From IMG/VR virus record IMGVR_UViG_3300015262_000006, positions 1 to 47,964 of that record: a stretch of DNA of 47,964 bases. The stretch is one strand, 5' to 3'. Below are positions 2,479-35,117 of the stretch, in pieces. Source of the DNA: a virus. The position numbers and the translations under genes are program-made. The notes below the pieces were generated by a model. The model had not been told where the DNA came from, did not search any database, and was given only the letters and a program-made list of their open reading frames with translations. Each line of letters begins with the position of its first letter. Within the stretch, counting starts at the first letter, position 1.

Positions 2479-2850
2479 ATGAATCACAAAGAGAAAGTAA
2501 AAGCAGGGATAGAAGGTCTGCGGTCGGCATTCCCTAAGATCTTCAGTCGCGACCAGCCAAAGCCACTGGCTATTGGCGCCTGCCGCCAGCTTAATCAGGC
2601 GCGTCGTAACGGAGTTCTGAATATCTCTGTGCTTGTTCAGCGAGCGGCTATCAATTCTTGGCTGTGCAGTTCCAACTACCATCGTGCCGTTGCCAGCACG
2701 CCATGCCGTTATAACCTTGACGGCTCTGCATCTGGCCCAGTATCTGATGAGCATCGTCAGCGGGCAATCGACAAGCTCAAAGAGATTCGCAAGGCCAAGA
2801 AAGCGCGCCGTGCAGCAATTAAGGCATCGAAGCTGAAGGTGGCAGCATGA
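2479..2850 (+). CDS. ProQ/FinO-family RNA chaperone
   Basis: This 123-residue protein matches the ProQ/FinO domain over about residues 8-95. Visible elements are LRSAFPKIF near the start, KPLAIGACRQL, a basic segment, and SNYHRAVASTPCRYNLDGS, which resembles the family pattern YLxAL...RYDLDG. A lysine/arginine-rich tail follows (KARRAAIKASKLKVAA). Family members bind structured RNAs, stabilise or pair small RNAs, and some are plasmid- or phage-borne. It probably acts in the cytoplasm on phage or host RNA. GAGGGG stands 8 bases before the ATG. The stop overlaps the next small gene by four bases. Confidence 0.85.
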   Translation: MNHKEKVKAGIEGLRSAFPKIFSRDQPKPLAIGACRQLNQARRNGVLNISVLVQRAAINSWLCSSNYHRAVASTPCRYNLDGSASGPVSDEHRQRAIDKLKEIRKAKKARRAAIKASKLKVAA

Positions 2851-2978
2851 ATTACCGGATAAATATCTGGTCAGCAATGGATGGCGAGCTTGAGAAATTC
2901 GGAAGCAGAAAAGTAATCAAGAAGCTAAAGCGAGATCGCATCATGAAACTCGTAAAATACTGGAGGCGCGCACAATGA
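2847..2978 (+). CDS. Small basic protein coupled to proQ-like gene
   Basis: This 43-residue frame starts at an ATG overlapping the previous stop (ATGA) and ends with a TGA overlapping the next ATG (CAATGA). The product is basic (KVIKKLKRDRIMKLVKYW) and begins MNYRINIWSAMDGELEKFG. I do not recognise a family. The perfect overlaps on both sides are the main support. Position suggests co-translation with the RNA chaperone and the nuclease. Confidence 0.7.
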   Translation: MNYRINIWSAMDGELEKFGSRKVIKKLKRDRIMKLVKYWRRAQ

Positions 2979-3868
2979 CGGAAGTGCAAGAAGACTGGAT
3001 CGTCCGGCAAGAATCACAGCCTGTTAAACAAGAGCGCCAAAAATTCGCAGTAGGCCTGCATGAAGGTTTGAGCAATGCCGATTATCACGCAGACGAGGCG
3101 GTCGGCAGCACAGGCCTAAAGCGAATCCTCGTCAGCCCTGCACACTTCCGATACCCGAACCCATTCAACGCGACTCGGGCCAAGGAGATCGGCAGCGCGA
3201 TTCATTGCCGCATTCTTGAGTCTGATCGCTGGGATACGGATTACAAGGTAGTTGAGTGTGATGCTCGCACGTCGGCGCTGTACAAGGCTGCGTGTAAGGA
3301 TCATCCGAAAGAACGCGTGTTGACTTCGGCTGAATACGAGAATGTTCTTGGAATGCAGAAGGGGGTGATGCGCAACCGCCATTGCCGAGAACTGATCAAG
3401 GCACCGGGGCGATATGAGCTTAGCCTTTTCACAACAGATCCAATTACAGGGGTTCAGGTCAAGGTTCGCTATGACAAGCTGACTGATTCCGGGATGCCGG
3501 TCGATCTTAAGAAGACGCAGAAAGCAGGCCGAGACGATTTCTCACGTACGATCAACAACTACGGGTATCACATCAGCGCCGCACTCTACATGGACGCCTG
3601 GGAGTGGCAATTCGGCGAGAAGCTGGACGTTATGCGATGGATCGCAATCGAGGAACAATCGCCGCATGCGGCTATGCGCTACAAGCCAGATGCTGATGCT
3701 CTGATGATTGCTCGCGCTTTGTATCGTGAAGCCCTGGAAATTTACGCGAATTGTCTTGATCGCGATGAGTGGCCGAGTTACGATGAATCAGAAGAAGAGA
3801 TTGGTTTGCCGGGTTACGCCGTGAATCAGTTTGAAGATGGTTTAGAAGTTAATGGATTGGAGGATTGA
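2975..3868 (+). CDS. PD-(D/E)XK exonuclease, RecE/exonuclease VIII-like
   Basis: This 297-residue protein resembles the C-terminal nuclease domain of exonuclease VIII (DUF3799). Motifs in order: GLSNADYHA, where substrate entry segments usually lie; GSAIHCRILE with the histidine (about 70-80); RYELSLF; VRYDKLTD with the motif II aspartate (about 165); PVDLKKT with the D-x-K pair (about 177); and the YHISAALYMD helix. Such nucleases degrade one strand to give 3' tails for annealing. The adjacent SSB and conserved hypothetical protein make a recombination module. No clear RecT/Beta annealase is present, so the next gene or a host protein may supply annealing. Confidence 0.85.
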   Translation: MTEVQEDWIVRQESQPVKQERQKFAVGLHEGLSNADYHADEAVGSTGLKRILVSPAHFRYPNPFNATRAKEIGSAIHCRILESDRWDTDYKVVECDARTSALYKAACKDHPKERVLTSAEYENVLGMQKGVMRNRHCRELIKAPGRYELSLFTTDPITGVQVKVRYDKLTDSGMPVDLKKTQKAGRDDFSRTINNYGYHISAALYMDAWEWQFGEKLDVMRWIAIEEQSPHAAMRYKPDADALMIARALYREALEIYANCLDRDEWPSYDESEEEIGLPGYAVNQFEDGLEVNGLED

Positions 3869-30228: not shown

Positions 30229-31131
30229 ATGGGCGAGCCAATCATCCCAAGAAGCGAAACGGACCCAACCGGCCAGCAGGCGAGAGTCCAGAAGGCTATC
30301 AAGGACTTCAATCGTCGCATTGACGCTGTGCAGAAAGGCGTGCTGGCTATCCTGAAGCGCATTCCGTATAAGGTCGTCACCCTGAACGCGGTTAATGCAG
30401 AGCAGAAGACGTACATTTTCGAACTTGACGATTTCACGCTATCCAACATGGATAACGAGATTGCGATGCTGATTGGCCAGCTAATCGATGAAGGTACGCC
30501 GCAAACGAACTGGTTTATGTCTAGCTACATTACCCCTGCATACGTGCAAGGTACTGCCCTAACAATGGCAAACCTGACGATTCAGTCGGAGGCCTACGCA
30601 GTTAGTAGACCGCATCTAGATTCACTGTTGACTAGCGCGCCTTATCGTCGACGCCTAAGCCTGCTCCAGGCTCGCACGTTCAACGAAATGAAGAAGATTG
30701 CCGATGATATGACTGGTGATCTAGCCTCTACCCTCTCTCGCGGCATGGCTAGCGGTCTTAATCCACGCAAGATCGCGGAGAACATCGAAACAAGGATTGG
30801 AGTTAGTAAGTCTGATGCTAGCCGTATCGCACAAACGGAGGTTGTCGGGGCCATGCGCACGGCCCGAAGAGAAGAGGCGCAACAAGCACAGACCGATCTA
30901 GGAATTAAGACTAAGCTGATGCATCTATCAGCACTCAAGAGCACAAGCCGCGCAAGTCATATAGCTCGCCACGGTAACTTGTATACAATCCAAGAGACTG
31001 CAACCTGGTATTCGATAGTGCCAAATATGATCTACTGTTATTGCACGCAAGTTGAAGTTCTCGTTAATGATAAAGGCGAACCACTATCCCCATCTATCAT
31101 CGCTCGCGCAAAAGCTAAACTTGACAAATAG
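30229..31131 (+). CDS. MuF-like minor head protein (head morphogenesis)
   Basis: This 300-residue protein follows the portal. The C-terminal part holds the MuF-domain pattern: SRIAQTEVVGAMRTARREEA, then LSALKSTSRASHIARHGNLY with R and H, and TWYSIVPNMIYCYCTQVEVL with the Cys pair. The N-terminal half is helical. Such proteins are minor capsid or injected proteins. AGAGGA stands 5 bases before the ATG. The gene is followed by a strong bidirectional terminator. Confidence 0.85.
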   Translation: MGEPIIPRSETDPTGQQARVQKAIKDFNRRIDAVQKGVLAILKRIPYKVVTLNAVNAEQKTYIFELDDFTLSNMDNEIAMLIGQLIDEGTPQTNWFMSSYITPAYVQGTALTMANLTIQSEAYAVSRPHLDSLLTSAPYRRRLSLLQARTFNEMKKIADDMTGDLASTLSRGMASGLNPRKIAENIETRIGVSKSDASRIAQTEVVGAMRTARREEAQQAQTDLGIKTKLMHLSALKSTSRASHIARHGNLYTIQETATWYSIVPNMIYCYCTQVEVLVNDKGEPLSPSIIARAKAKLDK

Positions 31132-32253: not shown

Positions 32254-33012
32254 TTATTTGCTCAAGATATCGAATGCTGTTGCTGCCAAGCGTGGAACTT
32301 GTCCATTTCCAATTGCCTTAAGTCGGTCCATCCCAAAGGCCACATCATGACCGATTCTGCGAACAAGGGATTCAGGTAGATCGGATCTTCCTCGCAAGTC
32401 CTCAATCCCTCTGACATCTTCGCCCCACGGTAGTCTGGAGAACCGATATAGCGCCTTTTCTGCGATCCCTTGCCCTCGTTTGCGCCTGTTGTTGGTAGCG
32501 ACAATCCAGATCCGCTCTCGTAGGTGAACTCCGCCGACGTCACGACATGAAAGCACTCCCCATTCCGCATCGAACCCCATCTTGGCCAGGTCTGCAAGGA
32601 CGACTCCGAGTCCTCGAAGAGTGAGCGCTGGGCTATTTTCCACAAGGACGTATTCGGGGTCAACCTCGCAAACGATTCTTCCCATTTGCTTCCAGAGGCC
32701 GGATCTGTTTCCTTCGATACCAGCCCCATTCCCGGCAACTGATATGTCCTGACACGGGAATCCGCCAGAAACCACCTCAACAAGTCCGCGCCACGGTCTT
32801 CCGTCAAAACTGCACACGTCAGACCAAATTGGGAAAGGTTTGAGTGCTCCATCGTTTTGTCGTTGCGCCAGAACTTGTGCTGCGTAGGCATCACGCTCAA
32901 CGGCGCAGACGGTGCGCCATCCCAAGAGGTGGCCTCCGAGTATTCCTCCACCGGCTCCTGCAAAGAGCGCGAGTTCTCGTAATCCTGCATCAGTGCTCGA
33001 CTTATTAGCCAT
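32254..33012 (-). CDS. DNA (cytosine-5) methyltransferase
   Basis: The 252-residue protein has the C5 methyltransferase motifs: motif I LFAGAGGG (about 16-23) for AdoMet, an acidic residue in VERD (39-41), the catalytic loop SGGFPCQDIS with Cys87, ENS at 125-127, RERIWIVA (motif VIII) near 165-172, and AIGNGQVP near the end (motif X). A target-recognition region between VIII and IX is short, so recognition may be of a small site. It probably methylates phage DNA against host restriction. The same DNA holds a second long open frame (32262-33017). Confidence 0.93.
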   Translation of the reverse strand: MANKSSTDAGLRELALFAGAGGGILGGHLLGWRTVCAVERDAYAAQVLAQRQNDGALKPFPIWSDVCSFDGRPWRGLVEVVSGGFPCQDISVAGNGAGIEGNRSGLWKQMGRIVCEVDPEYVLVENSPALTLRGLGVVLADLAKMGFDAEWGVLSCRDVGGVHLRERIWIVATNNRRKRGQGIAEKALYRFSRLPWGEDVRGIEDLRGRSDLPESLVRRIGHDVAFGMDRLKAIGNGQVPRLAATAFDILSK

Positions 33013-33017
33013 GACAT
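32262..33017 (-). CDS. Overlapping frame in methyltransferase gene (putative protein)
   Basis: In a different frame of the same strand, an ATG 5 bases upstream of the methyltransferase ATG opens 251 codons that span nearly the whole methyltransferase gene. The product contains SLQTWPRWGSMRNGECF, LSLPTTGANEGKG and LNPLFAESVMMWPLGWTDL, ending MDKFHAWQQQH. I recognise these as motifs of a family often listed as phage DNA methylase or hypothetical proteins. Both starts share one short upstream region. It may be a genuine overlapping gene or a frame kept open by codon bias. No biochemical role is known to me. Confidence 0.5.
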   Translation of the reverse strand: MSWLISRALMQDYENSRSLQEPVEEYSEATSWDGAPSAPLSVMPTQHKFWRNDKTMEHSNLSQFGLTCAVLTEDRGADLLRWFLADSRVRTYQLPGMGLVSKETDPASGSKWEESFARLTPNTSLWKIAQRSLFEDSESSLQTWPRWGSMRNGECFHVVTSAEFTYESGSGLSLPTTGANEGKGSQKRRYIGSPDYRGAKMSEGLRTCEEDPIYLNPLFAESVMMWPLGWTDLRQLEMDKFHAWQQQHSIS

Positions 33018-33382
33018 TTTCCTAAATACCCCGCCAAATTCGACAAAAGATCCGCGTTATCAGTGCACAAACCTAGCACCGTATTGCATCGATTGCAAAG
33101 TATTCCTCTGACCTTTAGGCTGGCATGGCAGTGGTCAATGTGTGGCTTTGTCTGCTTGTCTCCCCAATCAAATGCCTTCTTGCAGGTTGCACAGGAATCG
33201 GCCTGATCGCTCATCATTGCCGAAAAATCTTCAGGTGTTATGCCGTATTTTCGTCTTGATTCCTGAAGATAGCTTTTACGTCTATTAGCCGCGCGATATG
33301 CCTGTACCTTTTCAGGATTCGCCAACCTCCAAGCCTTTGCTGCCTGCCTTTTTAATTCTGATGTTTTGTAGCTATCCTTCAT
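33005..33382 (-). CDS. Recombination endonuclease VII-like protein
   Basis: The 125-residue protein has a basic helical N-terminus and the endonuclease VII core: YGITPEDFSAMMSDQADSCA with TCKK (first Cys pair), HIDHCH (active-site His and Asp), ILCNRCNTVLG (second Cys pair). This His-Me finger nuclease with a structural zinc resolves branched DNA before packaging. The gene stands between terL and the methyltransferase, behind its own promoter. Its stop overlaps the methyltransferase starts. Confidence 0.88.
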   Translation of the reverse strand: MKDSYKTSELKRQAAKAWRLANPEKVQAYRAANRRKSYLQESRRKYGITPEDFSAMMSDQADSCATCKKAFDWGDKQTKPHIDHCHASLKVRGILCNRCNTVLGLCTDNADLLSNLAGYLGKCHG

Positions 33383-33452: not shown

Positions 33453-35117
33453 TTATCTGCGCATGCGGGCTGGGAGTAACACTCCACCAGACGCTTGCTT
33501 CTCGATCAGCATTTCGGCCACAGCATCGAACATAGGATCGAGTTGGTCATCGTGCTTATGCGAGTCGTCAGCGCTGAAGTCTGCGACCTCTGCCAGGAAC
33601 GGCAGAACCCAATCAGTCTTGGCGATCTGCTTCCCGTTGCTGTCTGTAGTGCGCAGGATCGGATATCCGTCCTCATTCAAGATCGCAGGCACAAACACAC
33701 GCCCGTTCTTGACATAGCTCTGAATATCTAGGCAGCGCGATACCTTGTTGTTATCAGGACCGCGAGGAATGGCCTTGATCGGGATATGCTTCTTGTTGGT
33801 CAGCGTCTGGATCAACCCAGTGCCGCTTGCCTTGTCCTCGATTGCCATATGCCGGATTTGGCCTTGATAGGTGCTATCCCATGACGACCATTCAGCCCAT
33901 GCGTCCTGCGCAGTCTTGATCAGTTCGTCAGCGTCCCACTTGCCGCGCCTAACGTCGATCAGGTAAGCGTTGTTATCGACACCAAGGCCCCACAACTCAA
34001 ACACGGAGTAGTCGTTCTGCTCGCCTTTCTTCTGCGCTGTATCCGCGTATACGGCTCTCCACTGCATTTGCGGAAGCTGCTCGTAACGTTGTAGCCATGC
34101 AGAATCAAGAAGGCCGCCAGTAAGCGCTTGAGGGCGTTGCATGTACTGAGACATGAACGTGTACTCATCTCGCTCCCAAAGCGACATGAGGTCGTTAACG
34201 TGTTCCATTTCCGGCCAATATGACCAGTATCGAACGCCGCCCTTCTCGACTGAATCCGTATCCTTAACCGTATCCCAGCACATTTGCCGGTATGGCTCAG
34301 GCAGAGTGGCTATGTAGTCCTCTGTGACCAGCGCAGGGATCGCGATGTTCTTGAACTCTACACCCATGCCGCCAGCCATCATGAAGCCGGTAGCGTCCAT
34401 CGTGTGGAGTCGCTGCTGGATGGAAACGATAGGCGTAGGGTGTTCTTTTGACTTGTCGCCACGACGCGAGCGGAACGTGCCGGTCAATCGAGCATTGCTT
34501 GCGTCACGCTTCGTATTCGAAAGCATGTCGTCAGGTTTATTAAGGTCGTCAAAGAGCAAGCAGCCAGAAAACTCAGGCCCGAAGTAACCGGCACGACCAC
34601 CTGTAATCTGACCACCTGCTGACTTGCTGATGGTCTGCCCTACACTGCGGCCTTTCTCGTCGATCAGTTCCCACTCTTCGGCCTGGTTAACGCCAAATAT
34701 CGACGGCCATAGCTCTTGGTATTCCTTGGACGCGATAATGTCCCGCGTGCGCCTGGAGTTGCGGCGAACAAGTGAATCAGCGTAGGAAACGTTGAGGTTA
34801 CGGAACCGGCGCAGTTTCTTGGACTGAACCTTAGTATTGATGTAAGCAGGCAAATGGATAGAGAAGAACTCTGTCTTAGTGCCGCCTGGAGGAATGTTGA
34901 CGATCAGGTTTCCCGGCTTTAGCTTGCCGTTAATCAGATCGTCAATAGACGCTGCCATCATCTTGTGATGCCAGTTCACTAGAAGCCGGTCGCCCTGAAG
35001 CAACTCAAACCAGATGCGAGTGAAGTTAAGGAATGACTTCTCGGACTTCTGCTTAAGTATCAGCCTGTCCGCGAAATTCATATCCTCCCAATCAAGCAGC
35101 TTATTAGTCGAGGTCAT
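33453..35117 (-). CDS. terL: Terminase large subunit
   Basis: The 554-residue protein has the ATPase of a packaging motor: the Walker A-like segment NIPPGGTKTEFFS (about 75-87), Walker B CLLFDDLN (about 185-192), and then the nuclease domain with VYADTAQKKGEQND (Asp of the first metal site, about 358) and HKHDDQLDPM near the C-terminus. ATPase drives DNA into the procapsid and the nuclease cuts it. It overlaps terS by 14 bases. Confidence 0.95.
   Translation of the reverse strand: MTSTNKLLDWEDMNFADRLILKQKSEKSFLNFTRIWFELLQGDRLLVNWHHKMMAASIDDLINGKLKPGNLIVNIPPGGTKTEFFSIHLPAYINTKVQSKKLRRFRNLNVSYADSLVRRNSRRTRDIIASKEYQELWPSIFGVNQAEEWELIDEKGRSVGQTISKSAGGQITGGRAGYFGPEFSGCLLFDDLNKPDDMLSNTKRDASNARLTGTFRSRRGDKSKEHPTPIVSIQQRLHTMDATGFMMAGGMGVEFKNIAIPALVTEDYIATLPEPYRQMCWDTVKDTDSVEKGGVRYWSYWPEMEHVNDLMSLWERDEYTFMSQYMQRPQALTGGLLDSAWLQRYEQLPQMQWRAVYADTAQKKGEQNDYSVFELWGLGVDNNAYLIDVRRGKWDADELIKTAQDAWAEWSSWDSTYQGQIRHMAIEDKASGTGLIQTLTNKKHIPIKAIPRGPDNNKVSRCLDIQSYVKNGRVFVPAILNEDGYPILRTTDSNGKQIAKTDWVLPFLAEVADFSADDSHKHDDQLDPMFDAVAEMLIEKQASGGVLLPARMRR

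Follow-up and report, generated by a model that had tools for sequence, protein, structure and literature searches.

A phage C5-cytosine methyltransferase gene overlapped by a conserved +1 frame that probably encodes a second subunit

C5-cytosine DNA methyltransferases that are naturally divided into two polypeptides have been described before. In M.EcoHK31I (YGGCCR), the large polypeptide carries motifs I–VIII and X and the small polypeptide carries motif IX, and both are needed (PMC3404938, citing Lee, Kam and Shaw 1995); the predicted target-recognition domain (TRD) sits in the large subunit (PMC3404938). The gene of the small polypeptide is nested within the gene of the large polypeptide, in another frame. 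In M.AquI, the smaller subunit carries motifs IX and X (PMC3404938). Among phages, the deposited annotation of Paenibacillus phage Lily already marks a second gene within a cytosine methyltransferase gene (gp62/gp63, 'g62 internal gene'), to which no function is assigned there. We found no earlier report of the phage overlap that we describe here in the open-access literature that we searched.

We analysed a window of 47,964 nucleotides (positions 1 to 47,964 of the IMG/VR virus record IMGVR_UViG_3300015262_000006). Its minus strand holds two frames that overlap almost completely, one for a C5-cytosine methyltransferase (MT, here also called alpha) and a second one (ALT). The alpha ORF spans 32254–33012 (ATG at 33012–33010, stop at 32256–32254, 252 aa) and the ALT ORF spans 32262–33017 (ATG at 33017–33015, stop at 32264–32262, 251 aa), in the +1 frame relative to alpha, so that the starts are 5 nt and the ends 8 nt apart. 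Alpha matches PF00145 (E 1.1e-28) and phrog_363 (E 3.7e-57). It has motifs I–VIII and X, including GGFPCQDIS (PCQ, motif IV with the catalytic Cys, 32740–32766), VENSP (ENS), RERIW (RxR) and GNGQVP, the last within the motif X stretch DRLKAIGNGQVP (32293–32328), assigned by sequence. With the PF00145 match and the PCQ, ENS, RxR and X motifs, the frame meets the criteria for a C5-cytosine DNA methyltransferase. For ALT, we found no match in Pfam and no family in NCBIfam; it matches phrog_1008 (E 5e-16; 5.2e-16), which is labelled 'DNA methyltransferase'. A preliminary description, made from the sequence alone, had given the positions, lengths and end offsets of the two frames, and these held when we re-derived the coordinates. 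It had also paired motifs across the frames, and both pairings held: ALT MDKFHAW (32306–32286) overlaps MT IGNGQVP (32313–32293), and the ALT motif TWPRWGSMRNGECF (32591–32550), described there as TWPRWGSM opposite DLAKMGFDAEW, overlaps MT GFDAEW (32577–32560).

Directly upstream lies a gene for an endonuclease VII-like protein (33005–33382, minus strand, 125 aa; phrog_2914, E 3.5e-27), whose stop codon (33007–33005) overlaps the alpha start and the ALT start. From this arrangement we infer that translation of alpha and ALT is possibly coupled to the upstream gene. Genes for the terminase large subunit (33453–35117, minus strand) and a head morphogenesis protein (30229–31131, plus strand) are also found nearby, and together with the endonuclease VII-like gene they place the locus within a tailed-phage packaging region.

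When the codons of the window methyltransferase were shuffled synonymously, the ALT frame acquired a mean of 5.6 stops and was open in 0 of 1000 trials. We then compared the window to 80 IMG/VR loci that were retrieved with the ALT protein (81 sequences including the window), a set that is biased toward the presence of ALT. In this ALT-found set, ALT is open in all sequences but one (L056, where a stop splits it), with about 3.9 stops expected per locus under synonymous shuffling. To avoid the bias of the ALT search, a second set of 80 relatives was retrieved by searching only with the alpha protein. All 80 of these loci contain an ORF homologous to ALT, and they have zero to two ALT-frame stops each, which are located at the ends, that is, before the ALT start or after the ALT end; the exception is an internal stop in L094. 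An indel in L112 breaks both the alpha and the ALT frame. As a control, we examined classical C5 methyltransferases from 26 genomes, which contain as many +1 stops as expected (e.g. 16 vs 15.1 and 14 vs 14.7), whereas alpha-type enzymes from the same genomes contain zero or one such stop versus two to nine expected.

Some loci depart from this arrangement. Six loci in genomes that were also searched with ALT (L173, L177, L201, L221, L228 and L230) have a single nonsense codon in the MT frame and an open ALT; ALT might have a role without alpha there, or these loci might be decaying, and we regard both as no more than possible. In E. coli PCP07014 (L270, 2489–3250 on the reverse complement), the two frames are each interrupted by stops at nearly the same position, and RefSeq lists this methyltransferase as a pseudogene.

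In 125 of 155 loci, ALT starts exactly 4 nt after alpha (ATGAATG), and in the group of the window it starts 5 nt before alpha. Shine-Dalgarno-like tetramers are found upstream of ALT in 94 of the 155 loci, mostly 7–9 nt away. Furthermore, the N-terminus of ALT, MSWL[FI]S[QR]AL, consists of similar peptides that are written with different codons over unrelated alpha N-termini. In the window, MSWLISRAL (32991–33017, over the stop codon of the endonuclease VII-like gene) is encoded by ATG TCA TGG CTA ATA AGT CGA GCA CTG opposite alpha MANKSS, and in other loci MSWLFSQAL is encoded by ATG AGT TGG CTC TTT TCG CAG GCG CTG opposite alpha NELALFAG. Two loci (L012 and L018, ALT ORFs at 137–1382 and 2550–3798) have an insertion of about 430 nt near the start; ALT is open throughout (about 415 aa), and alpha restarts downstream of the insertion.

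To estimate selection in each frame, we used overlap-aware rates from 69 independent pairs with 80–97% identity, in which isolated differences were classed by their effect in each frame. At alpha codon position 1, alpha-nonsynonymous changes occurred at 0.0312 per opportunity if they were synonymous in ALT and at 0.0046 if they were not, a 6.8-fold difference, whereas the same comparison gave 0.0071 and 0.0056 for 16 flanking genes of the same pairs. Changes that are silent in both frames occurred at 0.128 per opportunity. Relative to this doubly silent rate, w was about 0.10 for alpha and 0.36 for ALT in the first 60% of the gene, and 0.50 for alpha and 0.17 for ALT in the last 40%. These estimates agree with those from 27 pairs of the alpha-found set (alpha/ALT w of 0.07/0.45 in the first part and 0.49/0.19 in the last part). 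Because we used a simple substitution model and had only a small doubly silent class, with 1129 opportunities, the values of w are approximate; their direction is robust. In addition, among 150 divergent pairs, ALT identity was 44.5% versus 28.4% expected under alpha-synonymous shuffling, with a mean z of 7.3 and a minimum of 3.0.

A sliding profile in bins of 20 residues locates the constraint on each frame. Alpha is tight over residues 1–159 (w 0.02–0.16), relaxed over 160–219 (0.44–0.61) and tight again over 220–252. ALT has its least constrained stretch opposite the catalytic motif IV, where it is almost free to vary (alpha residues 80–99, ALT w 0.79, MT w 0.02). It is tightest at 180–219 (0.04–0.08) and intermediate elsewhere; its N-terminal half is also constrained (0.17–0.46). 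Thus, the constraint of the methyltransferase dominates at motifs I–VIII and X, and that of ALT dominates where the methyltransferase is variable and predicted to be disordered. These results show that purifying selection acts on both frames, with complementary maxima. We conclude that the locus is very likely a genuine dual-coding gene pair; translation of ALT is inferred, as there are no ribosome-profiling or proteomic data. The preliminary description had raised the possibility that the fixed relation between the frames holds in many phages, and the +1 offset is indeed common to the 81 ALT-found sequences (window included) and the 80 MT-found loci. It had offered widespread dual coding or a widespread annotation error as explanations. 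The former is strongly supported by the stop and substitution tests, and the latter holds too, since records are inconsistent about which frame is called. Of the outcomes that it had named as refuting, neither a free accumulation of stops in ALT among homologues nor a lack of excess conservation at MT-synonymous sites was found; instead, there is excess constraint at these sites. It had left ALT unidentified.

What could the product of ALT be? The answer that we favour starts from what alpha appears to lack. The alpha sequence aligns to M.HhaI over residues 10–173 only, with the match ending at residue 173. In the AF2 model of alpha (pLDDT 73), which has C5 methyltransferases as its structural matches, the chain folds over about residues 8–180 plus the motif X helix, and residues 181–237 have a pLDDT mostly below 50 and are predicted to be disordered. 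Neither the M.HhaI alignment nor the AF2 model revealed a folded TRD and motif IX in the alpha polypeptide. Based on this alignment and the predicted model, alpha is unlike a complete monomeric enzyme and probably has neither a TRD nor motif IX. The conservation of ALT peaks exactly where these parts seem to be missing: alpha residues 176–225 (32338–32487), predicted to be disordered, correspond to the TRD position of monomeric enzymes, are relaxed in the MT frame and coincide with the strongest constraint on ALT.

Two further observations connect ALT to the methyltransferase. We built a profile from the C-terminal ALT motif LNPxWVEWLMGWPxGWTDL, represented in the window by LNPLFAESVMMWPLGWTDL (32319–32375), a putative motif IX. 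This profile matches LSxxFVEWMMGLPxGWVTD in the MT frame itself of three actinophage enzymes (Propionibacterium phage B22, Gordonia phage Baddon and Mycobacterium phage Graduation), 31–53 residues before motif X (21–27 bits, shuffle P <= 0.001). When applied to classical monomeric methyltransferases, the profile did not single out motif IX, which was the best site in only 2 of 19, not significant overall. Furthermore, in L067, L069, L070 and L076, and separately in L248, the ALT ORF has about 120–150 additional residues with motif X (DRLxAIGNGQVP) at its end, and the alpha ORF ends without it; in these loci, an active enzyme would therefore need both products. We also observed that the methyltransferases of phage B22 (L307, CDS 192–2291) and of L303 (contig frame +1) are interrupted at the catalytic PC|Q by insertions that resemble inteins.

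Because of the in-frame motif of the actinophages, the relocation of motif X and the precedent of M.EcoHK31I, we take ALT to be the likely supplier of the missing part. ALT would thus probably act as beta subunit in a C5 methyltransferase made of two polypeptides and carry the target-recognition and motif IX part; its translation, its association with alpha, target recognition and methylation are all inferred. Several results count against this reading. The N-terminal half of ALT is constrained, which a beta subunit does not need. The structure model of ALT is poor (mean pLDDT 57, pTM 0.25), too much so for a structural search, and shows no TRD fold, a profile comparison of ALT with solved structures gave no credible match, the ALT motif did not pick out motif IX in the classical monomeric enzymes and the predicted TRD of M.EcoHK31I is in the large subunit. 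Lastly, there are the six genome loci with a nonsense codon in alpha and an intact ALT.

In the mechanism that we propose, frame 0 would encode alpha, the catalytic core with motifs I–VIII and X and without a folded TRD. The +1 frame, which starts no more than 4–5 nt away from where alpha starts and whose translation is probably coupled to that of the upstream gene, would encode ALT as the beta subunit with the target-recognition and motif IX part. The two polypeptides would associate to form one active DNA-cytosine methyltransferase, as in M.EcoHK31I, with activity and target site being inferred.

When comparing the locus to M.EcoHK31I, we find that alpha resembles the large polypeptide in having motifs I–VIII and X and no motif IX. 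In contrast to that system, ALT spans nearly the whole alpha ORF, with starts 4–5 nt apart and a conserved N-terminal module of its own, the TRD region of alpha looks disordered although the TRD of M.EcoHK31I is predicted in the large subunit (PMC3404938), and the locus is phage-borne with no cognate nuclease identified. As in M.AquI, one C5 methyltransferase would be naturally split into two polypeptides, and loci of the L067 and L248 type, with a second ORF that ends in motif X, approach the I–VIII / IX–X division of that enzyme; however, motif X normally stays in alpha and the two ORFs overlap almost completely. Compared to the window, ALT of phage Lily is shorter and confined to the last two thirds of the methyltransferase frame.

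The main rival to the beta-subunit reading accepts ALT as a real overlapping gene but not as a methyltransferase subunit: its product would have a role of its own, such as regulation, anti-restriction or partnership with some other phage protein. This would fit the conserved N-terminal module with its own start, the six loci where alpha has a nonsense codon and ALT is intact, and the poor structure model that yields no TRD. However, ALT was never found without an overlapping alpha in about 240 loci examined, its motif is found in frame before motif X in actinophage methyltransferases, motif X itself has been relocated to ALT in two groups and alpha appears to be without a TRD. We therefore consider an independent function unlikely.

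Even less plausible is that ribosomal frameshifting or slippage joins alpha motifs I–VIII to the C-terminal half of ALT, with the N-terminus of ALT giving no separate product. Selection does peak first in frame 0 and later in +1, and poly-G tracts in five loci can join both frames. Yet ALT begins at a separate start, a fixed distance from that of alpha, its N-terminus is conserved as protein with different codons and is constrained (w about 0.36–0.45 overall), and in most loci one +1 shift would leave motif X out of the product, so that we regard this as very unlikely. The tracts follow directly after methyltransferase motif IV (11 G in L067 at about 1448–1461, 10 G in L249 and L257, 9 G in L258 and L245); changes in their length join alpha motifs I–IV to the C-terminal half of ALT, or the reverse, which would be expected if the tract served for phase variation or slippage. 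The remaining explanation, that ALT is a non-coding by-product of conserved methyltransferase sequence and codon bias, is supported by some ALT motifs that necessarily mirror methyltransferase motifs, such as WPRxGxMRNG opposite LAxxGFDAEW. It is all but excluded: the synonymous shuffles, the controls with classical methyltransferases and flanking genes, and the overlap-aware rates rule out an origin of ALT by chance or codon bias.

ALT-type frames are widespread. They occur in proteobacterial chromosomes and prophages, in plasmids of Acinetobacter, Leptospira and Nostoc, and in phages of Bacteroides, Porphyromonas, Paenibacillus, Synechococcus, Microcystis, Microbacterium and Mycobacterium; some of the homologue searches used +1-frame translations of L084 and L262 with stops dropped as queries. 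In distant relatives, ALT is open only from about residue 60–100 onward, and the near start-to-start overlap is thus a feature of the window's subfamily. We searched viral contigs, species genomes, phages and plasmids for stand-alone ALT genes and found none, as every ALT match that we examined overlapped a methyltransferase frame.

Annotation of the locus varies. Most records annotate the methyltransferase alone, that of phage Lily annotates both frames, and that of Pseudomonas phage phPA-G shows ALT as a hypothetical protein and has no methyltransferase entry. In PHROGs, the two frames are separate families (phrog_363 and phrog_1008), both called 'DNA methyltransferase', and the label of phrog_1008 is silent on this family being the +1 frame of phrog_363. 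ALT of the window, phPA-G, Lily (gp63, 5.8e-44), L067, L248 and L264 all match phrog_1008. With usually just one of the frames shown in a record, a single locus appears in public databases as two unrelated protein families. If ALT is a subunit, experiments in which only the annotated ORF is expressed may lack a necessary part of the enzyme.

Same-strand dual coding that is conserved over about 750 nt, with relatives in phages, plasmids or prophages of proteobacteria, actinobacteria, cyanobacteria, Bacteroidota, Firmicutes and Leptospira, would be unusual among double-stranded DNA phages for both its length and its spread. In a bolder reading, which we consider probable when taken as one joint claim, phages and prophages of several phyla would encode the two halves of one enzyme in frames that overlap from start to stop, with selection split along the gene such that the constraint on one frame falls where the other can vary freely, and with the catalytic motif X able to switch frames. 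The locus is a natural test case for the division of an enzyme between overlapping frames.
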